From: Tsukamurella sp. M9C
GTDB lineage: Bacteria > Actinomycetota > Actinomycetes > Mycobacteriales > Mycobacteriaceae
Reading direction: 5' to 3'
Assembly: GCF_020169415.1 (NCBI RefSeq)
Contig: NZ_JAIULG010000010.1
Location: forward strand, 1 to 64,000
DNA: 64,000 bases
Part shown: piece after piece, positions 37,301 through 50,361 of the stretch
How positions within the stretch are numbered: position 1 is the first letter of the stretch
Layout of the letters: the number at the start of each line of letters is the position of its first letter
Made by a program: the position numbers and the translations under genes
Notes under the pieces: generated by a model
What the model saw: the letters and a program-made list of their open reading frames with translations, nothing else
Told to the model about the DNA's origin: nothing
Database searches by the model: none

Positions 37301-37915
37301 CGCGTGAACCCGCTGGCGCTCGAGGAGTTCGCGGCGCTGGAGGAGCGCTACAACTTCCTCTCTACGCAGCTCGAGGATGTGAAGTCGGCCCGCGAGGATC
37401 TGCTGAGCGTGGTCGAGGAGGTGGACGCCAAGATCCTGCAGGTGTTCACCGAGGCCTGGGTGGACGTGGAGCGCGAGTTCGTCGAGGTGTTCAAGACGCT
37501 GTTCCCGGGCGGCGAGGGCAAGCTGATCCTCACCGAACCGGGCGACATGCTGACCACCGGCATCGACGTCGAGGCCCGTCCACCGGGCAAGAAGGTCAAG
37601 CGGCTCTCGCTGCTCTCCGGTGGCGAGAAGTCCCTGACCGCCGTCGCCATGCTGGTCGCCATCTTCCGTGCCCGGCCCTCACCCTTCTACGTGATGGACG
37701 AGGTCGAAGCCGCCCTGGACGACACCAACCTGCGCCGCTTGATCTCCCTGTTCGAGCAGCTGCGCGACAAGAGCCAGCTCATCGTGATCACGCACCAGAA
37801 GCCGACGATGGAAGTCGCCGACGCGCTGTACGGCGTGTCGATGCGCGGCGACGGCATCACCCAGGTCATCTCTCAGCGGATCCGTGGTCAGGAGCTTGGA
37901 GCTCTGCCTGTGTGA
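34331..37915 (+). CDS. smc: Chromosome segregation protein SMC
   Basis: A complete 1194-residue SMC ATPase. The N-terminal head has Walker [11 protein letters not shown] (about residues 32–41) and [13 protein letters not shown] at the start. Long coiled-coil arms (about 170–500 and 670–1000) flank a hinge around 510–650. The C-terminal head carries LSGGEKSL (about 1095) and Walker [17 protein letters not shown] with ScpA/ScpB organises and condenses the chromosome. In mycobacteria ftsY follows smc; here the next genes are a restriction-like island. GTG start; no ATG is in range. Confidence 0.96.
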
Positions 37916-38042
37916 CCACGTTTCGAACATCCGAACGAAACTTGTCGGACGTTCCGGATACCGTCGGCCACGGGCCGGAAAAACGACGCGCGCCGGCGCG
38001 CCTTTCGGCCGTTGTTGTCTGCAGAATCTAGAGTGGTGAACC

Positions 38043-39152
38043 GTGTCCGACTATCGATCTGATCTCCTGACGCCGCTGCACTCGCCTCGGATCGTAGATT
38101 TGTTCGCAGGTCCAGGCGGGCTCGACGTTGCCGCAACGTGGCTTGGAGTGGAGTCGGTGGGGATAGAGCTCGATCGCTCGGCGTGCGCGACACGAGAAGC
38201 GGCCGGACTTCAGTATATTAACTGTGATGTACGCGATGTTGACGCGCTCGAGTTTCTTGATCACAACGTCCTGGCGGGGGGGCCGCCGTGCCAGACCTTC
38301 ACTGTTGCGGGCAACGGGGCCGGGAGAAGGCAGCTCGACCTGGTGCTTCATCTCGTGAGTCTCCTCGGGCAGGGCCGCTCGGGAGAGGTCAAGGCCTTGT
38401 TGTCGGAGATGGACGACGAACGCACCGGGCTGGTACTTCAGCCACTGATCTGGGCGCTAAAGCGGGCTGCGTTTGATGAGCCATTCGAGGCGATCGTGCT
38501 CGAGCAGGTACCCGCGGTGCTCCCCGTGTGGCTGGCAATGGCAGAGGTGCTCCGCAAACGTGGTTACGGCGTCAAGTGCGACGTTCTATACACGGAGGAA
38601 TACGGCGTTCCCCAGACAAGGCGCCGCGCAGTCATGGTCGCGCGCTACGGAATCCCTGACCGCCTTGTAGCACTCCCGGCTGCAACCCATGATCGCTTCG
38701 ACAGAAGGCGACCGGTGATGGGCCAGAATGTGAAGTCGATGGGAGAGGTCCTGCCTGAGTTGGGCGAATTCACTGTCGTATCCAATTATGGATCCGGTGG
38801 TGTCTCGACTGCACGGGGACGCCGGAAGTCGAGTGCTCCTTCGTTCACTGTGACAGGCAAGATCTCTCGCAATCGGGTCGTGTTAGACGATGGTTCTGAG
38901 TTGCGATTCACGCCTGACCAGGCCGGCAGGCTACAGACGTTCCCGCCGAAGTTTCCCTGGCAGGGTAGGGACATACCGCAGCAAATCGGGAACGCAGTTC
39001 CCCCGGTGTTAGCTGTGCACGTCCTAGCGTCGGTGTTCGGTTGGAGCGACGCCCGCCGGGACTTGGCGTTGGAGGCGGTCGGATGCGATTGGGTGCGCGA
39101 TCTTGCGGGTGATAGTCGTGCCGCACAGGAACAACAATTCGTGCTCGCATAG
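38043..39152 (+). CDS. DNA (cytosine-5) methyltransferase of the defence island
   Basis: A 369-residue C5 methyltransferase. RIVDLFAGPGGLD (motif I, residues 16–28), GGPPCQTF with catalytic Cys83 (motif IV), EQVP where ENV is usual (motif VI, residues 154–157), QTRRR (motif VIII) and GNAVPP (motif X) are all present. It should methylate cytosine in a short target to mark self DNA. The target-recognition region between motifs VIII and IX is about 100 residues; specificity cannot be read. GTG start with TAGAGT eight bases upstream. It begins the island 127 bases after smc, in DNA with more A/T than the flanks. Confidence 0.93.
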   Translation: MSDYRSDLLTPLHSPRIVDLFAGPGGLDVAATWLGVESVGIELDRSACATREAAGLQYINCDVRDVDALEFLDHNVLAGGPPCQTFTVAGNGAGRRQLDLVLHLVSLLGQGRSGEVKALLSEMDDERTGLVLQPLIWALKRAAFDEPFEAIVLEQVPAVLPVWLAMAEVLRKRGYGVKCDVLYTEEYGVPQTRRRAVMVARYGIPDRLVALPAATHDRFDRRRPVMGQNVKSMGEVLPELGEFTVVSNYGSGGVSTARGRRKSSAPSFTVTGKISRNRVVLDDGSELRFTPDQAGRLQTFPPKFPWQGRDIPQQIGNAVPPVLAVHVLASVFGWSDARRDLALEAVGCDWVRDLAGDSRAAQEQQFVLA

Positions 39153-39283
39153 CGGTCACCTGCCGTGCAAACGGTTGTTGTGGTCTGTCGACCGGAGACC
39201 TTGAGCCGTCCGAGTGCGCAGCGAGCGCCTGGATGGCTAGGGCTATATGATGCCCGTGTTGTGGCGGAGGACCAGGAGCGGCG

Positions 39284-40960
39284 ATGAATTCAGCGATCAA
39301 CTCACACGGAGGCTCCGAGCCGGGATTGGTTCTGAGGTTCGATCCACACACGATCGAACACCTTGGGTCGAACATGTATTCTCGCCTTCCGAACGCCGTC
39401 GCCGAGCTGGTGGCAAACGCATACGACGCTGATGCGAAGACGATCAGCGTGAAGATCGACGGTAGTGGCGATAGTCAGAGCATCGTGGTCGCGGATGATG
39501 GCCATGGAATGTCGAGATCTGACCTTCGCGACAAGTACCTGAGAATCGGTCGGAACAGACGAGGAGCGAATAATCTTGCGTCGTCGGAGAGCGGCCGGCG
39601 AATGGTGTCTGGAAAGAAGGGGCTCGGAAAGCTCGCCCTATTTGGCATCGGTCATCAAATTGATGTTCGGACTACGCGGGAAGGGGAATCGGTTCAGAAC
39701 TTACTCGCCATGAGCTGGGACGATCTGATCACCACCGAGGATGGAGATTATCAGCCGCATTACGAAATTGCCGCCACCGATCCGTCAAGCCACGGGACAT
39801 CGGTGACTGTTTCCAAGCTCACGAGAGTGAGTAATATCAGCCCGTCCCAACTTGCTGAGAGTCTATCGCGACTCTTTCACTACAGCGACAGTGAAGTGGA
39901 GCTGACTGTTGTTGGTCGTGATGGAAGTCGTCATTCCGTGACCCGGGACTTGAGGCTGAATTCCGTCGCTACCGAGTTTGAATGGCCAGTTCCGGAAGGT
40001 CTTCCAGATTCGGGCGAACGCTTGTCCGAACAGGGGGTCACGGGCCTGATTATTGCTGCAGAGAAGCCGCTTCCGACTCAGATGCGAGGTATTTCAGTTT
40101 ACGCCAGCGGGCGGCTCGCGAACGAGCCGGAGTTCTTCGGTGCTTCGGACTCCAGCTACGCGTACGCGTACCTATCGGGATATGTCGTCGTAGATGCCCT
40201 GGATGAGATTCGCCCTGATGTTGTCGCGACGGACCGGCGAGGTGTGAATTGGGACCACGCGGAGGCAGCTGAAGTGCGCGCCATTCTTCGGACAATGATC
40301 GAAGAGATCGCTCAGCTCAGGCGGCGCCTGCGGGCGGACAAAAAGAAGCGGCAGGTTGAAGAAGAGGCTGGGGTTGACTCTGATGAATGGGTCGACACAG
40401 TGGTGGGGCCAGAGAAAGAGCCGCTGCGTGAATTGATTGGAATCATCGAGTCCGATGAAACCGACATGAGCGATCAAGATCGGGGTAACGCGGTCCGAAG
40501 CCTGAAAGAGATCGCGCCCCCTTATGCAAACTTGGTGTGGCGCCACCTTCATCCGAGTATTCGGGCTACGTCCGAGGGGTACTTCAAGGCGGGCGACTAC
40601 CATCAAGCGCTGGTTGAGGCATGTAAGCGGTACGTTTCGGATCTGAGGGCAGCGGCCAATCTTCCAAATGAATCAGAGTCGAGTCTATTCGGGAAAGCTC
40701 TAGGAGAGCACGGATCGCTAAGCTTCTCACGAAAGTTTCAGACAGGAAGCTTGGTTATCTCGGGTGAGTCGGCGAAAAACTTGGAGAACGGTCAGCTTCA
40801 GTTGTCGAAAGCGATCTGGATGGCCTTTAGAAACCCTCTGTCGCATGAGCCCCTCGAGACTATCAGGAGCCTCGGGGTGATAAGTCATGCCGATTGTTTG
40901 GATGCGCTCAGTCTGATGTCTTACCTTAGGCGGCGTGTGGACGACTGTGTGGCGACCTGA
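39284..40960 (+). CDS. MORC/MutL-like GHKL ATPase of the defence island
   Basis: A 558-residue protein with a GHKL ATPase fold at the N-terminus: N-box AVAELVANAYDAD (Glu41, Asn45, Asp48), DDGHGM (71–76, ATP-binding G1 box) and SGKKGLGKLALFGIG (109–123, G2 box). RIGRNRRGAN and the Lys/Arg-rich segment near 345–360 (DKKKRQ) match MORC-type prokaryotic ATPases, which are found with methyltransferases and nucleases in predicted restriction systems. The C-terminal half is helical with no catalytic motif I recognise. SD GGAGGACCAGGAG precedes the ATG. Probably an ATP-driven clamp that couples DNA sensing to cleavage; inference from the family. Confidence 0.85.
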   Translation: MNSAINSHGGSEPGLVLRFDPHTIEHLGSNMYSRLPNAVAELVANAYDADAKTISVKIDGSGDSQSIVVADDGHGMSRSDLRDKYLRIGRNRRGANNLASSESGRRMVSGKKGLGKLALFGIGHQIDVRTTREGESVQNLLAMSWDDLITTEDGDYQPHYEIAATDPSSHGTSVTVSKLTRVSNISPSQLAESLSRLFHYSDSEVELTVVGRDGSRHSVTRDLRLNSVATEFEWPVPEGLPDSGERLSEQGVTGLIIAAEKPLPTQMRGISVYASGRLANEPEFFGASDSSYAYAYLSGYVVVDALDEIRPDVVATDRRGVNWDHAEAAEVRAILRTMIEEIAQLRRRLRADKKKRQVEEEAGVDSDEWVDTVVGPEKEPLRELIGIIESDETDMSDQDRGNAVRSLKEIAPPYANLVWRHLHPSIRATSEGYFKAGDYHQALVEACKRYVSDLRAAANLPNESESSLFGKALGEHGSLSFSRKFQTGSLVISGESAKNLENGQLQLSKAIWMAFRNPLSHEPLETIRSLGVISHADCLDALSLMSYLRRRVDDCVAT

Positions 40961-41055
40961 AGAGGCAGAAAAATGAGACATTCTGTGCGGACGGGAATTC
41001 GGCCGAAATTGAGTTCGCTTTGAGGGCAGGAATCAGGGCGACGGCGGCGTCGGCA

Positions 41056-41805
41056 CTATCGATGACGCGCTTCATTTGTCGCCTGCAGAATGTTTCGGAG
41101 TAGCTCGCGAATCTGAGGTGTGTCCATGCTCTCGAACGAGACGAAGGTCGTCAACCGCAGGATTCGTTTCAGGAAGTCGCGTAGGAGGTCTCGCTTCCGG
41201 TCATCGGATCCGAATTCTGACCAGACAGTGACGATTGCGCGTACAAGAGCGGGGCTAGCGCCGAGTGAAGCTCGGCGCTCGTAAATCTGTCCGAAGGCTT
41301 CGCCGCCGATCATCTCCAGCGCCTCGTACGGATCCGACGAGGTGTTGGACCAAACGAGCTGAGCGCGCCACCAGAGCCGTCCGAAAGTGTGCCGGGTGAG
41401 GTCAGTGCCCAACACTCTGTCACGGATCGGGTTGGGAAAGCGCCAATGCGTGACGTCCGGAAGGAGAACGGCGGCGAAGAACGCCCAGACGTCTCCTGAA
41501 CTCGCCTCCGCCGGCACCATGGCGAGTTCGGAGTGGAGGTAGCGCGCGACAACGATGTCGAAACGGTTCCGATCGTCTGCTGACGTCGACTCGGGAAACC
41601 CGGACTCGAGTGCGAGCGAGAGGACGGCTTTCCGATGTTGGTTCAGATCAGCCTCGGCGACCCGCGTCCCTCCGGTAGCGACGAACACCGCGGCTGGATG
41701 TGCCGTCCTCGCTCCCCGGGACAGGTCGCTGATCGACGAGTTCGCCTGCTCGGCGAACAGTTGCTCCGCAGCGGCGGGTAGGAGACGGGGATACAGCTGA
41801 GTCAT
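41056..41805 (-). CDS. Uncharacterised island protein (DUF6339-like), last gene of operon
   Basis: A 249-residue protein I place only tentatively with the DUF6339 group reported next to Z1-type ATPases. It is mostly helical, with no nuclease or nucleotide motif visible: LYPRLLPAAAEQLFAEQ at the start, and WAFFAAVLLPDVTHWRFPNP ... RHTFGRLWWRAQLVWS in the middle are the best conserved-looking parts. Its ATG overlaps the stop of the preceding gene by four bases (ATGA), so it is made together with the Z1 module. Probably a structural or targeting subunit. Confidence 0.6.
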   Translation of the reverse strand: MTQLYPRLLPAAAEQLFAEQANSSISDLSRGARTAHPAAVFVATGGTRVAEADLNQHRKAVLSLALESGFPESTSADDRNRFDIVVARYLHSELAMVPAEASSGDVWAFFAAVLLPDVTHWRFPNPIRDRVLGTDLTRHTFGRLWWRAQLVWSNTSSDPYEALEMIGGEAFGQIYERRASLGASPALVRAIVTVWSEFGSDDRKRDLLRDFLKRILRLTTFVSFESMDTPQIRELLRNILQATNEARHR

Positions 41806-42707
41806 GCTTTGCCTCCGATGGTGTGCACCGCTCCCTGCACCTCAGCGCTGAACAACGTCGGCAGAGTGTTCCTTCGGACGCGGAGGTCTTGGACATCTTG
41901 ATCGGGGAACAGGCGCTGGACCAACGACTGGAGCATTCGCCCGAGGCTCTCGTCCGGGTAGTCGACATCGTGATCGAAGTCCGCATCGCTGAGTGCGTGT
42001 TCGACGAGCTGCCGCGCGACATCCGCGTGGACGGAGCGGATGGTGGCGAGTTGATCCGCAGAGGCAGTCGAGGCGTTCTCGAACGCCGCGGCGACAGCAC
42101 CATTGGATTGGTTGATGCACAGCAGCAGGGATCCCATAGCCGCGCTGTCGAGATCCCCGGCGATCTGGACGAACCAGGTGGACTGCTCGGGAAGGTTGGT
42201 CAGCGCGAAATCGATAATGGTGACGGGGAATTGGGGAGCGTCATCCTCGAGTCGAACCGTGGTCGACTCGTCCCAGAGCACCGATCCGGGGAGGTGTGCG
42301 GTGAACGGTGCGACGGGAAGTGATCGTGGTTCTGCGAGACACACGATCGTCCTGATCGTGAGGGTCCCGCCGATCTCGGATCCGTAGAGCGTGCAGTCGA
42401 TGTCGATCTCGTGCCGGCCGTCGACCAGCTGCTGGAACGCCCGCCGTCGTTGACGCGACCCGCTCGACTCCCACACGACGGATGTGTGCAGGGGCGTGGA
42501 AGGGGGAAGCTCCGCATCGCTGTAGATCGCCGGGAGGTCCAGGCGCACCCGGCGTGAGATCTGGAGGTCGGTATTGTAATCCCACTCGGGGATCTCGTTC
42601 GGTAGCTCTCCGAGCTCTGCTTGGCCGATGACGAGAAGCCATGGAGATGCGAGTATCCGGGATGCGGCCGGGATCTTGTACGGCAGCGCAACGTTAGGCA
42701 TCGGCAT
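41802..42707 (-). CDS. Uncharacterised island protein, mixed alpha/beta
   Basis: A 301-residue protein that I do not recognise. The first two thirds are beta-rich (LASPWLLVIGQAELGELP, GRHEIDIDCTLYGSEIGGTLTIRTIVCLAEP), with a helical C-terminal part ending ...LFSAEVQGAVHTIGGKA. No catalytic motif, signal or membrane segment is evident. It overlaps the GHKL gene before it by 14 bases and the 249-residue gene after it by four, so it is an obligate part of the five-gene unit. It may recognise DNA or hold the complex together; no function is claimed. Confidence 0.6.
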   Translation of the reverse strand: MPMPNVALPYKIPAASRILASPWLLVIGQAELGELPNEIPEWDYNTDLQISRRVRLDLPAIYSDAELPPSTPLHTSVVWESSGSRQRRRAFQQLVDGRHEIDIDCTLYGSEIGGTLTIRTIVCLAEPRSLPVAPFTAHLPGSVLWDESTTVRLEDDAPQFPVTIIDFALTNLPEQSTWFVQIAGDLDSAAMGSLLLCINQSNGAVAAAFENASTASADQLATIRSVHADVARQLVEHALSDADFDHDVDYPDESLGRMLQSLVQRLFPDQDVQDLRVRRNTLPTLFSAEVQGAVHTIGGKA

Positions 42708-44664
42708 CCTCCGCCTGTGCGGCTGTGAGGGTGATCTCTGTGGTGGTGTCTACCGCCGGCCGAACCAGCAGGGTCCACACCGAGCCGTCACCGGGATGAG
42801 CGAGCGTCGGGGTGCCGGTGAAATCGCTGCCGTCGAGTCGGCACCACCCCCTGACCTGAGGCACAGGAGCACCGGCCGGTGCTTCGCTTCGTTTCTCGCG
42901 TCCGCCGGCGATGGCGACCTCGAGTACCGCCCCTACGGTGACGGGAACGCGGTGTTCGACGGCGAATTCCTGGGACAGAACAGGCTCACCGTTCAGGTAG
43001 AGGTACGAGGGAGCTCCGTGGTACTCGATTCGGGGCTTCCGAGTCCGGCGATGTGATCGTTTTCCGGGACTTTCGTTCGAGTTGGTCGAGGTTTCGGAAC
43101 GGTCGGAAGACCTGTCGTCGCTGGAGTTGCTCGACGACTCGCCGAAGTCCGGAGCGCCCCCGGAGCCATTCGAGCCGCGGTTCGTCATCCCGACGCGTTC
43201 GGCGAGCGTGGAGGTTCGAGCCGCTGGTCGAGCTCCGACGCCAAGCACGAGATCGGACAGCAGAATCGAGGCGGAGCCCAGTGCAGCGGTGGACGACTGG
43301 CCGTCCGTCCCGGGCTGAAGTTCACCCACGTGCTTGCCTGCGGCGTCCTTCAAACGCTTCAGCGCTACGTTCACGTACGTTCGCTGAGGTACGTCCAGGT
43401 GGGTCGATACCCAATCGTCGTGCGTGGGCGGTTCGGCGCTCGCAAAGACATCGTCGACCTCATCAGCAGCACGAAAGACGCCGGAATAGCCGACCATACG
43501 GTTCCCGGTCTTCGGACCTGCAAGGTACTTGACCACCAGCTCGGGCGTCCTGAGTAGGCAGATGTGGTGAGTCGTGCCGTCGAATCCGCACTCTTCCGCG
43601 ACGGCGCTCGGCTCGAACGGAGGTGAGATGCTGGGCTGGACTGCCAGGGTCCCCAGGTGCTGCTTGGGGCGAGCGCTTGCGATCGGAGTGCCATCCGGGC
43701 CCGATAGCGCGCGGTAGGCATGGACGAAGGTGCTGAGCGGACGGCTTGTCGTCGGGTCGGGAATCTCGACATCGCTGCCATTGAGGGTGACTGCGAACTC
43801 CATCGCTGTCGTGCCTCGGGATTCGTTTTTGAGCATCTTCGGCCATAGATTCCAGGCGATAGCGTTCGCCATCCACTCGGCTGCCGATTCCGCATCTGAA
43901 TCCGGATCCTCCGGGTCCATGTCGAGGTCCGGGTCGATGATGGTGATCGACGTCCCGGTCTCGTCGTCCGCGAATGCGGTGAGACGTAGCTGCTTCGCGA
44001 CGGACTCGGCTTGCTCGCCGACGAGCGGTTCGATGATCTCGCCCGATACGTCACCCCACCAGTGGCGTCCGGTGTAGCGCTGTCCTGACATTCCCTCGCC
44101 GACGGTGTAGCTCTGCCACAGACTGCATGCGATGAGGCGAGTCTCGCGACCGTTCACCCCCTGGCAACGGGTGTGGATCACGACTGTGCCGCAGCGTGAC
44201 AGCCGATAGAAGATTCCCTTGCCGAACCCGTAGGTGCCGCCACCGAAGTCGGTGTTACGAGGTTCCCCCACGTTTCGGACGAACGAGACGAAGTCGTTGT
44301 TGTCGACGATGGCATTGTCCGCGCGAGTAGGGCCGCCGAGGCCGCGAGTACCACGATCGGAGATCGTCAGTATTCGGAGGCGTTGTCGGTCGAGTGTCGT
44401 TCGCAGCGGCAGATGTGCTTTCGAAGGCGCGTCCTGGCCGAGCAGCAGACGCCGCCACACCGGTGCAACACCTGCGGGAAGATCAGTCAGCGCGAGCGAG
44501 AATCGCACGGGGCCGTCGCCCGTGCGAGCGTCCCAGCTGTTCTGCGCGGCTTCACGCACGAGGACCGTGAGAGGATTCAACTTGGGCTGGCCGAGCTGAT
44601 TGCGAATCCCCTCAGCAGCAGAAGCTCCGCCCGGAGGAAACCTCTGTGAATACCATCCGATCAC
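42694..44664 (-). CDS. Second GHKL-type ATPase of the defence island
   Basis: A 656-residue protein from GTG 44664, overlapping the nuclease gene's stop by four bases. The N-terminal domain has GHKL boxes: VREAAQNSWDA (N-box Glu38, Asn42, Asp45), SDRGTRG (G1, about 102–108) and FGGGTYGFGKGIFY (G2, about 140–153). A Ser/Asn-rich, Asp-containing linker near residues 485–540 precedes a C-terminal beta domain with YLYLNGEP and RGWCRLDG. It is distinct from the MORC-like ATPase at 39284. Probably an ATP switch working with the Z1 protein and PD-(D/E)XK nuclease. Confidence 0.7.
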   Translation of the reverse strand: MIGWYSQRFPPGGASAAEGIRNQLGQPKLNPLTVLVREAAQNSWDARTGDGPVRFSLALTDLPAGVAPVWRRLLLGQDAPSKAHLPLRTTLDRQRLRILTISDRGTRGLGGPTRADNAIVDNNDFVSFVRNVGEPRNTDFGGGTYGFGKGIFYRLSRCGTVVIHTRCQGVNGRETRLIACSLWQSYTVGEGMSGQRYTGRHWWGDVSGEIIEPLVGEQAESVAKQLRLTAFADDETGTSITIIDPDLDMDPEDPDSDAESAAEWMANAIAWNLWPKMLKNESRGTTAMEFAVTLNGSDVEIPDPTTSRPLSTFVHAYRALSGPDGTPIASARPKQHLGTLAVQPSISPPFEPSAVAEECGFDGTTHHICLLRTPELVVKYLAGPKTGNRMVGYSGVFRAADEVDDVFASAEPPTHDDWVSTHLDVPQRTYVNVALKRLKDAAGKHVGELQPGTDGQSSTAALGSASILLSDLVLGVGARPAARTSTLAERVGMTNRGSNGSGGAPDFGESSSNSSDDRSSDRSETSTNSNESPGKRSHRRTRKPRIEYHGAPSYLYLNGEPVLSQEFAVEHRVPVTVGAVLEVAIAGGREKRSEAPAGAPVPQVRGWCRLDGSDFTGTPTLAHPGDGSVWTLLVRPAVDTTTEITLTAAQAEDADA

Positions 44665-45665
44665 TGGGCTGCCCCCTGTGCGACCTTCGCCATCAGTTCG
44701 CGTGTCTTCGGTGGCGTCAGTGCATCGGCTACCGGCAAGTCGATCGAGTACTCGACCGCGTAGATCGGTAGCGCGATGTCGACTCTCCCGAGTGCGTCGG
44801 GCGTGATCCTCGGGAAAGAATCCTTGACGGGAATCGTGACCGTCTCCACGACTGCAAATCGTTCGGGGTATCGCTCCTGGTCGGCAGGTGTCACACCGGC
44901 GGCGGCGAGGCGTTCGAAGAACAACTCTCGGTCGTCGACGGCCTCGCTGATTCGTAGTGCGAGTTCCACCAGGGACTCGCCCGTGGGGTCGGTACGAACC
45001 CGAACCCACTGGACGAACAACGGTCGTTCATCGATTCTGTCGAGCTGGTCGATCCCGTGTATCCGGGTGCGATTGCTCTCGGGATCGGCTGTGGATTTCA
45101 CTTCGATGTCGCCGGCGGCGGAAACGAAATCGTGCGGTTTTCCGAGCGGTCCGAGCCAGGTGTCCGTCGCCGAAGGGGACGATTCGAGCAAGGTCTGCAA
45201 GGTGAGTAGTTCGCCGAAGAGGCCGACTATTTGGTCGGTGCTGAGAGCTCTGGGGGCAGGTGCAAAAAGTGCTCTCCACCTCGAGAGCACGTCGTTCGCC
45301 GCGGCAACGGCACGGTCCGGGGCGGACTCGATCGCTACGAGGAGATCGGCGCCGAGGTCGTTGAAGAGGCTGTCGAGGCGGCGGTTCACGGTGCATACGT
45401 CGAGGTAGCGCTGGTAGTCGCGCTCGGATTCGATCGCGCTCTCTCGCACCTGGAGGTTCGCGCCGTCGATGGTCCGTCGTGACCGTTGGTTGGGTGGAAT
45501 CGGCACCAGGATATGCCGATTACCCTCGGTGTCGGTCGCCGCGAGTACGGGCCCTGCCGGGGTAGGGACGGGCAGCGCGGACGTCCGAAGTTGAGCCTCG
45601 GTAGCAGGCTCGTCGAGGTGGCGTGACCAGTGCTCGCTCAGAATCCCCTGGATGTCACGCGCCAA
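44661..45665 (-). CDS. PD-(D/E)XK-motif nuclease-like protein (DUF4420)
   Basis: A 334-residue protein with a TTG start that overlaps the Z1 stop by 11 bases. FGELLTLQTLL (Glu152) and KPHDFVSAAGDIEVKST (Asp179/186, Glu188, Lys190) form a PD-(D/E)XK nuclease core of the DUF4420 family, which is seen beside Z1 and GHKL genes. It is the best candidate for the DNA-cutting subunit of the island, with Vsr as a second nuclease. Only the TTG gives a full-length start in this frame. Confidence 0.78.
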   Translation of the reverse strand: MARDIQGILSEHWSRHLDEPATEAQLRTSALPVPTPAGPVLAATDTEGNRHILVPIPPNQRSRRTIDGANLQVRESAIESERDYQRYLDVCTVNRRLDSLFNDLGADLLVAIESAPDRAVAAANDVLSRWRALFAPAPRALSTDQIVGLFGELLTLQTLLESSPSATDTWLGPLGKPHDFVSAAGDIEVKSTADPESNRTRIHGIDQLDRIDERPLFVQWVRVRTDPTGESLVELALRISEAVDDRELFFERLAAAGVTPADQERYPERFAVVETVTIPVKDSFPRITPDALGRVDIALPIYAVEYSIDLPVADALTPPKTRELMAKVAQGAAQ

Positions 45666-48261
45666 CGGAATCTCCGAGATCTTCGCTGTCGAGCGCCGCG
45701 ACGTCGTCCTCCTCGAGTTCGGGAATCGCCGCGCTGACGTAAGAGTTCTCGACCGTGCTGTCGTCGCCGCTGACGTTGGGGAAGACGATGCCGATTCCTA
45801 TGACATGCTCGGGAGCATTCAATTCCACACGGCGGTTCTCGCCACGGGCCGGCCGCCCTGGCGACGATTCCTTGTCGATGACGTAGATGGTCAGTAGCCC
45901 GCGGTCGGGAGCCTGCTCAGTTCGCAGCTCCTGGATCTTCGGTTCGGTGAGCGTTCCCTTCTGCTTCGACAGATCCAGGTCGACCGCCGCGTCAGCACGG
46001 CTCATCAGGGTCTTGATGTCGTGGAGCTCGCCGGACAGCTGCGAACGGGTGACTCGAGCGGGGGCGATTCCCGGCGCCAACTCGAAGCGATCGGCCTGGT
46101 CGAGCGACCCGACCTTCGCACCGCGTCCGATCACGGCGATGTTCCACGTGTGGAGCGACCCTGCCTTTGCTCGTTTCTCGATGTACTCGGTGAGCAGGGT
46201 GCGGAGGCCCTTGTCGCCCACTCTCTGCTCCGGAGAATCGTCGAAGAAGCTGTAGTCCTTCAGAAAGTCCAGTACCTCGCTCTTCGGCACGCCGTTGATC
46301 ACGAATCGGTCTTCCCGCTCGTCGTGTTTCAGGCTGAATCCTTCGCGGATCAGACGGTTGAGGAGCGTCTTCGCCGCAGTCTGGTTCCGCAGGAGTACGG
46401 CCCGATCGAGATCGAACACGTGGGTCTGGACACGATGGCCGCCGTATGCAGCGGAGGCAGTGACCGCATTCGTCATCTTCGCGGCCGAGGTGACTCCCAG
46501 CGAGGGGTGAGTGCGGATCCTGACCGCGAAGGTCATCGGCGTCACGTCGCCCGTCATGTACATCTCGATGTCGCGTCGGATCTCGGATTCAACAGTCGCG
46601 AGGTGCTGGAACCAGGACTGCAGGTCGGCGGTCATCCACACGCGGGGGAGGTCCTCGTACCCGATCCTGTAGCCGAACCAGCGGCCCATTTGGAGCAGCG
46701 TGTCGTACGCGGATACCGACCGGACGAAGTAGCTGACGACCAGGCCCTCGAGCGTCAGGCCACGTGAAAGGGTGTTGCCACCCACTGCGATCGCCACGAC
46801 AGGGTCGCCCTCGTAGTCGAGACGTACCTTGCTGGTCGCGTTGTCGAGAATGATTCGGCAGTCGTCGAGAACGCGGGGGAGGAGAGGCAGGATCTCGTCG
46901 AAGGGAACGGCCGTGCGATCGAACTCAACCGCGGGAACCGCGGCGGTCTCCTGCTCCCACAGCGCGCGGAGCTCGTCGATGATGGCGCCGCTCGATTCGA
47001 TACTCTTGAAGACACTCCAGCGGAGCGCGTCCAGCGGTTCCCTGAAGCTGTTGTGGACCTCGGTGTTCACGCTCGTGTGAATGAGCATCGTGGAGTGCTT
47101 GTTCCCGATCCGCCTGACTCGTCGGGCCGCGGTTGCCATCCAGAAGTACAAGATCGCAGTCCGCAGCTGGCCGCTGATGTCGGGTACGAACGACTCCCTG
47201 TCGGCCTTCGTGCGCGGGCGTACCAGGTCGACTTCGTCGTCGTCGATGGTGCGGATCATGTCGTATCCGACGTCGAGATCCTCGGCGTCCTCGTCGTCCA
47301 ACAGATCCCGACCGAACAGGACCTCCGTTCCGAAGTGGCCTTCGGGCTTCGGGAGACTGATGATGAAATCTCTCGGGTACAGGTCGTCTGAACTCGGATC
47401 GATCAGGAGGTTCGCGAACGGTGTCGCGGTGTAGCCCACGTAAGCGGCCTTCGGGAGCTTGTCCATGATCTCGAGGATCAAGGGATTGAGGGTCGGGGAC
47501 GCTACGGTCGCCTGGTCCGCCTCGTCGTCGATGATCAGCGTCGGCACCTGAGCGAGGTGATCGGACGCCGACGCCAACCAATCACGGAACTTGCGGAGAA
47601 CGGGCGCGTTCTTCTTCACGACGCAGAGGACATGCTGCCGGTTCGTTTGCGCGAAGTACGACACCGCGCCCGACGAAGGCGGCGTGAAGTCCCTGTCCGC
47701 GACGGTGAGCTGCATCCATGACGCTTCGTTTTCATCGATCAGGTCCTTCATCAGCCGAGCCTGGGTCTGCCGGCGAAGGCTGTTGTGAATGCCGGCGAGC
47801 ACGATGAAGAGCTTGTAACCGCTGTCGGCAGCCTTGGCCATCACGGCGGTGAAATTGGTGGTCTTGCCGGACTGCACGTGGCCGAGTACGAGCCCACGGC
47901 TGGAGAAGGCCGCCTCTTTCGGGTGGTTCAGCTGCTCCATGACCTGGCTGGAGGAACGGTCGAGCGCATCTATCGAAGTGTCCGACCACCCGCTCGCAGC
48001 TAGACGCGCTTTGAGTGATTCCCAATGTCTGTCGCCTTCGCGTGGGCCGGTGTACCAGGTCGCACGGTTGTTCCGCACCACCATGGGAGCGATGCCGCGG
48101 TCACGGACCGAGATCACATCCGCTTCGTGTCGAGCCCGAATCCTCTCGATGACGTCCCGGGTGGCTCCGAAGAGTGCGAGCTTCTTGAGAGCCTGCTCGG
48201 GTGTCGAGGAATCTAGTAGATCCTGGAAGACCTCGTACTGACCTTCGAACTGTCCATCCAC
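45655..48261 (-). CDS. Z1-domain SF2-type ATPase/helicase
   Basis: An 868-residue protein from GTG 48261 (a GTG at 48273 is four codons earlier; neither has ideal SD spacing). Walker A GHVQSGKTT (127–135), Walker B as IIDDEAD (243–249), GYTATPFAN (276–284) and FGYRIGYEDLPRVWM near 640 define the Z1 P-loop ATPase family. The Z1 domain is reported with MORC/MutL-type restriction genes and is thought to translocate or remodel DNA. It is the first gene of a five-gene, fully overlapping operon and is divergent from vsr, with about 140 bases between. Confidence 0.85.
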   Translation of the reverse strand: MDGQFEGQYEVFQDLLDSSTPEQALKKLALFGATRDVIERIRARHEADVISVRDRGIAPMVVRNNRATWYTGPREGDRHWESLKARLAASGWSDTSIDALDRSSSQVMEQLNHPKEAAFSSRGLVLGHVQSGKTTNFTAVMAKAADSGYKLFIVLAGIHNSLRRQTQARLMKDLIDENEASWMQLTVADRDFTPPSSGAVSYFAQTNRQHVLCVVKKNAPVLRKFRDWLASASDHLAQVPTLIIDDEADQATVASPTLNPLILEIMDKLPKAAYVGYTATPFANLLIDPSSDDLYPRDFIISLPKPEGHFGTEVLFGRDLLDDEDAEDLDVGYDMIRTIDDDEVDLVRPRTKADRESFVPDISGQLRTAILYFWMATAARRVRRIGNKHSTMLIHTSVNTEVHNSFREPLDALRWSVFKSIESSGAIIDELRALWEQETAAVPAVEFDRTAVPFDEILPLLPRVLDDCRIILDNATSKVRLDYEGDPVVAIAVGGNTLSRGLTLEGLVVSYFVRSVSAYDTLLQMGRWFGYRIGYEDLPRVWMTADLQSWFQHLATVESEIRRDIEMYMTGDVTPMTFAVRIRTHPSLGVTSAAKMTNAVTASAAYGGHRVQTHVFDLDRAVLLRNQTAAKTLLNRLIREGFSLKHDEREDRFVINGVPKSEVLDFLKDYSFFDDSPEQRVGDKGLRTLLTEYIEKRAKAGSLHTWNIAVIGRGAKVGSLDQADRFELAPGIAPARVTRSQLSGELHDIKTLMSRADAAVDLDLSKQKGTLTEPKIQELRTEQAPDRGLLTIYVIDKESSPGRPARGENRRVELNAPEHVIGIGIVFPNVSGDDSTVENSYVSAAIPELEEDDVAALDSEDLGDSVGA

Positions 48262-48401
48262 TGCGCTTGACACTCTCCCCGGTCCGATAAAGCCGCTTTG
48301 CCGACTCAGCATAAGGAGTGGACGGCCGCATCGTGTTCCAGGGCACACATCTCGGACACGGAGACGATTGTGGGTTCTCGATCGTGATCGATGATGGGGA
48401 T

Positions 48402-48839
48402 ATGGATTCATGGGCCACCGACGGCGGTGTGCGCCGCTCGATGCAATCGAACCGTCGCAGGGACACAGGGCCGGAGTTGGCGCTGCGTCGGGAAGTGCAC
48501 CGTCGGGGGTTGCGCTTCTTCGTCGACAGAGCCCCGCTTCGCGAACTAGCGCGACGTCGTGCGGACCTGGTGTTCCCGCGCCTGAAGGTGGCGGTCTACC
48601 TGGACGGTTGCTTCTGGCACGGATGCCCGGAGCATCACTCGGTGAGTAAGACCAACGCGCAGTTCTGGGCGACCAAGGTTGCGAACAACCGTGCCAGGGA
48701 CGAGGACACCAACCAGCGTCTCGAGGAAGCCGGCTGGACGGTGATCCGCGTGTGGGAACACGAGGACCCGGCGGTCGCGGCAGCGGAGATCAAGGCCGTC
48801 GTCGAGAAGGCGAAGAGGCACCGCCCGAAGAACAGGTGA
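48402..48839 (+). CDS. vsr: Vsr-like very short patch repair endonuclease
   Basis: A 145-residue Vsr-type nuclease. RRDTGPELALRREVHRRGLRF, RADLVFPRLKVAVYLDGCFWHGCPEHH (with the catalytic Asp and the His/Cys zinc ligands) and WTVIRVWEHE are the family's conserved blocks. Vsr nicks T:G mismatches produced when 5-methylcytosine deaminates, so it belongs with the C5 methyltransferase at the other end of the island. Several Vsr-like proteins act as restriction nucleases, which is also possible here. Divergent from the Z1 gene; ends 80 bases before gnd. Confidence 0.9.
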   Translation: MDSWATDGGVRRSMQSNRRRDTGPELALRREVHRRGLRFFVDRAPLRELARRRADLVFPRLKVAVYLDGCFWHGCPEHHSVSKTNAQFWATKVANNRARDEDTNQRLEEAGWTVIRVWEHEDPAVAAAEIKAVVEKAKRHRPKNR

Positions 48840-48918
48840 GGTGGGGGCACCGTCGGGCATGGGGACGTAACGTAGGGGCCGAGTGTGAACCACCACGAGG
48901 AAGAGGGACGAACAAGCG

Positions 48919-50361
48919 ATGAGCAGCAATGACGCCAAGGCGAACATCGGTGTGGTGGGGATGGCGGTGATGGGCTCGAACCTGGCCCGCAACCTGGCGT
49001 CCCGGGAGGGCAACACCGTCGCGATCTACAACCGCTCGCCGGAGAAAACGCACGAGGTCGCGAAGAACCACCCCGAGGCGAACTTCGTTGCCAGCGACAC
49101 CATCGACGAGTTCGTCGCCAGCCTCGCGAAGCCGCGCACCGCGATCATCATGGTCCAGGCCGGCGCGGGCACGGACGCGGTGATCGAGCAGCTCAAGGAG
49201 CGGTTCGAGCCTGGCGACATCATCGTCGACGGCGGCAACGCCAACTTCCACGACACCATCGCCCGCGAGGCGAAGATCGCGCCGACGGGCATCCACTTCG
49301 TCGGCGCCGGCATCTCCGGCGGAGAAGAGGGCGCGCTCAAGGGCCCGTCGATCATGCCCGGCGGCACCGCCGAGTCGTACGAGACCCTCGGCCCGATCCT
49401 CGCGTCGATCGCCGCGGTCGCCGAGGGGGAGGCCTGCGTGACCCACGTGGGCACCGACGGCGCCGGCCACTTCGTCAAGATGATCCACAACGGCATCGAA
49501 TATGCCGACATGGAGCTCATCGGCGAGGCCTACGACCTGCTGCGCAACGTGGCCGGCTACACGCCCGCCCAGATCTCGGGCCTGTTCGCCACGTGGAACG
49601 AGGGGCCGCTCAACAGCTACCTCATCGAGATCACCATCGACATCCTCAAGCACGTCGACGCGGAGACCGGCAAGCCCTTCGTCGACATCGTCACCGACCA
49701 GGCCGGCAGCAAGGGCACCGGCGTCTGGACCGTGCAGACCGCCCTCGACCTGGGCGTGCCGGTCGGCGGCGTCGCCGAGGCCGTCTTCGGCCGCGCTGTC
49801 TCGTCCAAGCGGGCGCAGCGCGACGCGGTCCGCGCGCTGGGCATCGAGCGCCCCACGGCGCCGCGGGTCGACGATTCCTTTGTTGACGACGTCGCGAAGG
49901 CCCTGTACGCCTCCAAGATCGTCGCCTACGCCCAGGGCTTCGACGCGATCATCGCCGGCGCGGAGAAGTACGGCTGGAACATCGACAAGGGCGCCGTCGC
50001 CAAGATCTGGCGCGGCGGCTGCATCATCCGCGCCCAGTTCCTCAACGTCCTGGCAGACGCTTACGCCGAGAACCCGAACCTCAACACCCTGCTCGAGGCA
50101 CCGTACTTCGCGCAGGCCATCCGCGACGGCGAGGAGGCGTGGCGCCGGGTCGTCATCACCGCCACGCAGGCCGCCGTGCCGGTGCCGGGTTTCGCGACGG
50201 CGCTGAGCTACTTCGACTCGCTCAACGTCGACCGCCTGCCCGCCGCCCTCGTCCAGGGGCAGCGCGACTTCTTCGGCGCGCACACCTACAAGCGCGTCGA
50301 CAAGTCGGGTACCTTCCACACCCTGTGGTCGGGCGACCGCAGCGAGGTGAAGACGGACTGA
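48919..50361 (+). CDS. gnd: 6-phosphogluconate dehydrogenase, decarboxylating
   Basis: A 480-residue enzyme of full length. ANIGVVGMAVMGSNLARNLA is the NADP site, VDGGNANFHDT and GISGGEEGALKGPSIMPGG are the substrate loops, and HFVKMIHNGIEYADMELI holds the catalytic lysine. It oxidises 6-phosphogluconate to ribulose 5-phosphate and CO2 with NADP, in the pentose phosphate pathway. A GAAGAGGGA ribosome site precedes the ATG, and a strong hairpin follows the stop. Confidence 0.96.
   Translation: MSSNDAKANIGVVGMAVMGSNLARNLASREGNTVAIYNRSPEKTHEVAKNHPEANFVASDTIDEFVASLAKPRTAIIMVQAGAGTDAVIEQLKERFEPGDIIVDGGNANFHDTIAREAKIAPTGIHFVGAGISGGEEGALKGPSIMPGGTAESYETLGPILASIAAVAEGEACVTHVGTDGAGHFVKMIHNGIEYADMELIGEAYDLLRNVAGYTPAQISGLFATWNEGPLNSYLIEITIDILKHVDAETGKPFVDIVTDQAGSKGTGVWTVQTALDLGVPVGGVAEAVFGRAVSSKRAQRDAVRALGIERPTAPRVDDSFVDDVAKALYASKIVAYAQGFDAIIAGAEKYGWNIDKGAVAKIWRGGCIIRAQFLNVLADAYAENPNLNTLLEAPYFAQAIRDGEEAWRRVVITATQAAVPVPGFATALSYFDSLNVDRLPAALVQGQRDFFGAHTYKRVDKSGTFHTLWSGDRSEVKTD

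Follow-up and report, generated by a model that had tools for sequence, protein, structure and literature searches.

Restriction machines of the kind considered here have been predicted earlier, and the closest described relatives are the operons of Iyer, Abhiman and Aravind 2008 (PMC2292703) and the putative 'Type I' defence system described by Miller, Stern and Burstein in 2022 (PMC9523054), both cited from the accessible parts of their texts. The window analysed here, a stretch of 64,000 nucleotides from a contig of Tsukamurella sp. M9C (NZ_JAIULG010000010.1), carries between smc and gnd an eight-gene island that is most likely an ATP-driven, methylation-linked restriction machine directed against viruses. 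It consists of a five-gene core, namely a DUF6339 protein (P0003), an unnamed subunit (P0004), a GHKL ATPase (P0005), a DUF4420 nuclease (P0006) and a Z1 ATPase (P0007), together with a C5 cytosine DNA methyltransferase (P0001), a second GHKL ATPase (P0002) and Vsr (P0008). The operons of PMC2292703 share with it a GHKL ATPase, a helicase with the DThhQXuRhFG motif, an E-D-ExK nuclease, DCM and Vsr, and their paraMORC2 proteins, compared by motif description, have the ExxxH motif, assigned there to an S5 domain, that P0005 carries in 73 of 73 loci in addition to its GHKL motifs; the accessible text names neither DUF6339 nor the unnamed subunit. DUF4420 is printed as DUF4220 in the paper on Type I. 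Type I is linked to a DNA repair endonuclease, and Vsr is present here in the window and within 5 kb of the core in 54 of 73 loci; Type I also has three further genes, to which the three present and conserved here are likened by number only. In the accessible part of that paper there is no mention of a HEPN fusion or of methyltransferases being exchanged, and no functional test is described.

The five core genes form a conserved set, found, by record titles, in actinobacteria, proteobacteria, cyanobacteria and one spirochaete metagenome-assembled genome, with P0004 at the equivalent position in 52 of 80 loci. Across 73 loci the GHKL residues of P0005 (E153/N157/D160, D218 and G261/G263/K264) and its ExxxH pair (E526/H530) are each invariant, as are P6, W107 and R122 of P0003 and W178 and N199 of P0004; residues E152, D179, E188 and K190 of P0006, and the Walker A residues (G177/K183/T184), D295/D296/E297/D299 and D570/Q574/R577/F579/G580 of P0007, are conserved in 72-73. 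The methyltransferase residues C83, E154, Q191, R193 and R195 are each invariant in 62 of 62 methyltransferases of such loci. It is because of the protein families present that a methylation-linked restriction machine is most likely, in which P0001 would probably set the self-mark and P0002 would probably act as an accessory abortive-infection RNase.

Several observations weigh against this reading. The DUF4420 nuclease is missing from 8 of 81 operons, so that cutting by DUF4420 is not essential everywhere, and in the draft genome G586 (locus L059) the five-gene core occurs in the absence of any PF00145 match, which would not be tolerable for a classical methylation-protected nuclease (a PF00145 match was found in seven of the eight genomes examined for it). 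Genomes carrying a P0001-type methyltransferase showed no avoidance of 6-base palindromes peculiar to them (164 kb of the own genome), and what speaks for P0002 as an RNase is a single motif together with a match to a family. Finally, the literature matches listed (in part the first 15-20 rows), from a search outside which most subscription papers fell, include no experimental study of the system; in the preliminary description, too, the exact combination is not known to be characterised. Two papers matched in one of the literature searches contain no mention of DUF6339. The restriction system which that description had proposed is partly supported. Of the eight genes, whose co-occurrence it had suggested examining, the five of the core occur jointly across bacteria, while the methyltransferase is often exchanged, P0002 is accessory and Vsr lies near part of the loci.

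A C5 methyltransferase lies within 5 kb of the core in 65 of 73 loci. The class without one is partly an artefact, as L002, L068 and L168 are situated at the ends of contigs and the 5-kb limit missed a methyltransferase 10-11 kb away in three DUF4420-less genomes. This neighbourhood tally, like the Mantel tests, left out the duplicates L149 and L171, methyltransferases shorter than 320 residues, L004 and L169, the last set aside as odd; one further comparison left out L004, L028 and L040. The methyltransferase beside the core is often swapped for an unrelated one between related operons, and seven methyltransferase families occur on the core tree, with 15 family changes, where 300 shuffles gave 36 on average and never fewer than 30. 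The families are thus mostly inherited with the core, which weighs against a reading of targets through DUF6339.

In BREX, the available part of the literature reports that the PglX methyltransferase sets both mark and target, and by analogy we tentatively propose that methyltransferase-type reading may direct the engine to its target by way of DUF6339, a proposal that fits the exchange pattern and a DUF6339 fusion. In the fusion (L169:10847-14056), DUF6339 (PF19866, 46 bits) is followed in the same reading frame by a C5-methyltransferase domain (PF00145, 131 bits). It occurs in a genus other than that of the window, where 14 of 295 genomes, that of L169 included, have a near-full-length match in one frame, and three more (G821, G591 and G852) have both halves in an apparent single open frame, judged by length. 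In all 12 distinct loci (L169 and L275-L285) the catalytic PPCQ of the fused domain is replaced by GLPR, motif I, the ENV motif (ENM in L285) and the near-terminal motif are kept, and a gene of P0004 type lies directly 5' of the fusion; a separate PPCQ-bearing methyltransferase lies directly 3' of it or overlaps it in 10 of the 12. The L169 fusion raised this proposal from unlikely to tentative, and two rival explanations were lowered slightly. Standalone relatives of the fused domain (L286-L293) are 54-57% identical to it and none of the eight has PPCQ; since their short flanks gave no match to P0003, P0004 or P0005 in any of the eight, the domain may serve a separate function, which weighs against target reading through DUF6339, as do the occurrence of the fusion in another genus, the possibility that swapped enzymes share a motif, and G586. 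Partial matches resembling the standalone relatives were seen in many of the 150 genomes, out of 295, that gave a hit.

At its C-terminus DUF6339 seems to have a slot for modules that read DNA, because, besides the fused methyltransferase domain, long tails and a helix-turn-helix are found there. Among the DUF6339 proteins of the 73 loci, 17 extend more than 40 residues beyond window residue 236, six of these by more than 150, and a Nocardia tail matches a helix-turn-helix at 29 bits (cut-off 23), a second tail giving a weak match of 17 bits, below the cut-off. P0003 itself has no extra C-terminal module. The tails of L002, L004, L005 and L172 reach about 250 residues, and scans of the first three revealed no clear family. 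For the DUF6339 set, 41 of 52 rows were kept, over-long or redundant ones being dropped, and 40 were aligned with the window's copy.

Little weight is put on the partial Mantel tests, which are liberal. The divergence of DUF6339 tracks that of the methyltransferase weakly (0.16 for 48 loci and 0.20 for 62, at the floor of 500 permutations), and P0004 gave 0.164 and 0.065, respectively. DUF4420 was rejected as a specificity subunit, its divergence not tracking the methyltransferase (-0.07 and -0.12).

It is rather doubtful, though the best-surviving alternative, that the island is an ordinary type II-like restriction-modification system whose core and swapped methyltransferases all read one common motif. 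One motif can be common to non-homologous methyltransferases, and in the two clearest swap pairs Vsr is still 50-56% identical, but seven families and 15 changes would need convergence on that motif. Methyltransferases adjacent to NaeI, taken as a control, are always at least 44% identical (seven loci, 21 pairs; local identities and partial methyltransferases, against global identities in the swap pairs); the exception, left out of the control, is genus-mate L135, where NaeI shares 39-47% identity with the other NaeI proteins and the methyltransferase at most 34% with theirs. That the core and the neighbouring methyltransferase are independent systems is unlikely: it gains from G586, and it is opposed by the presence of a C5 methyltransferase close to most cores, by family changes on the core tree far fewer than chance, and by the fusion in one genus. 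A hotspot cargo that is decayed or silent would suit an island G+C content (0.56-0.65) below that of the surroundings (0.66-0.76) and is very improbable, as all eight frames are open and the catalytic residues intact.

If the DUF6339 proposal is correct, exchanging natural methyltransferases would re-aim the engine, a methyltransferase domain lacking its catalytic cysteine would have become a target-reading subunit, and what prokaryotic MORC-type clamps do could be tested directly.

P0002 is probably an abortive-infection RNase accessory to the core. Its GHKL ATPase, C-terminal Ymh domain and Rx4-6H motif (RNPLSH at residue 516) give it the architecture of the paraMORC-Ymh (HEPN) fusions in the accessible part of PMC3710099, which likewise lie in restriction neighbourhoods, and its N-terminal part matches NF050001 (BbrUII/HgiDII) at 189 bits, below the cut-off of 550. 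In N. gonorrhoeae, a C5 methyltransferase and Vsr flank a broken paraMORC-Ymh relative with two in-frame stops (L270:7001-8605), in a 2.17 Mb record whose size makes its plasmid label doubtful.

The extent of the island between smc and gnd agrees with the preliminary description (Table 1), and genus-mate L138 has 515 bases in its place; no word of at least 9 bases is shared between the edges 37881-38060 and 48761-48940. Family matches bear out the methyltransferase, Z1 ATPase, PD-(D/E)XK nuclease and Vsr that had been named there. Both GHKL ATPases stand, with a Ymh/HEPN domain added to P0002 and P0005 placed in the paraMORC2 type, and of the two proteins called unrecognised, P0004 remains so and P0003 belongs to DUF6339.

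Table 1. Coordinates of the island and its genes in the window.
Feature	Coordinates	Strand	Support
Whole island	37916..48893	.	from smc stop codon to conserved stretch upstream of gnd
P0001, C5 cytosine DNA methyltransferase	38043..39152	+	PF00145 97.7 bits
P0002, paraMORC-type GHKL ATPase with C-terminal Ymh/HEPN domain	39284..40960	+	HATPase_c_3 78.6 bits, Hypoth_Ymh 56.4 bits
P0003, DUF6339 protein, last gene of core operon	41056..41805	-	PF19866 56.9 bits
P0004, unnamed core subunit, ~300 residues	41802..42707	-	no family match in library scans
P0005, GHKL ATPase of paraMORC2 type	42694..44664	-	GHKL and ExxxH motifs; listed open reading frame to 45009 over-long
P0006, DUF4420 PD-(D/E)XK nuclease	44661..45665	-	PF14390 174 bits
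P0007, Z1 ATPase	45655..48411	-	PF10593 219 bits
P0008, Vsr mismatch endonuclease, likely start ~48402	48318..48839	+	TIGR00632 112 bits (above cut-off), PF03852 51 bits

MZA (mzaABCDE), in the account of PMC9523054, includes an AIPR protein (MzaE), whereas none was listed for the eight proteins at E ≤ 0.1 (for P0001, among the best 25 of 53 PADLOC rows). The NCBIfam cut-offs for MzaB, MzaC and MzaD were missed by P0002 (26 of 850 bits), P0007 (368 of 1500) and P0006 (104 of 420), respectively, and P0005 gave no MzaB match and, against a MORC/MzaB alignment, a marginal match only, near the GxGK box (E 0.0096, probability 4.3). A split AIPR in P0003/P0004 was rejected, as profile comparison with an AIPR alignment shows no relation, and PDB profile searches for the least-known subunits gave nothing usable (best E 0.016, an engineered protein). 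Weak PADLOC matches were to PDC-M33A (P0005, 44 bits) and PDC-M33C (30 bits), with no PDC-M33B among the matches listed. From the accessible parts of the respective papers, CglI/NgoAVII (PMC4267653) has a PLD-B3 nuclease where the island has PD-(D/E)XK, GHKL and two more subunits, and the Corynebacterium diphtheriae BH8 island (PMC5379612), compared by gene list, has a methylase fused to a helix-turn-helix and an EcoRII-like gene; related literature, likewise available in part, comprises a TCS/paraMORC paper (PMC8011034) and a VcSduA paper (PMC12137116).

In L135 the NaeI-family enzyme adjoins a methyltransferase 60% identical to P0001. GCCGGC as the target site was rejected as unsupported: among 12 other NaeI loci a single one gave a P0001 match, at 27% identity, and the frequency of the site is 0.93-0.98 of that expected in each of the five genome samples, whether or not they carry a P0001-type methyltransferase. 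Of the 12 loci (L173-L184), 8 have Vsr relatives, 45-56% identical to that of the window, in the vicinity of NaeI genes. In another genus-mate (L128:126-16945), a cluster near gnd of MrfA-type, UvrD and PbeA-like helicases adjoins a Vsr that shares 83% identity with P0008.
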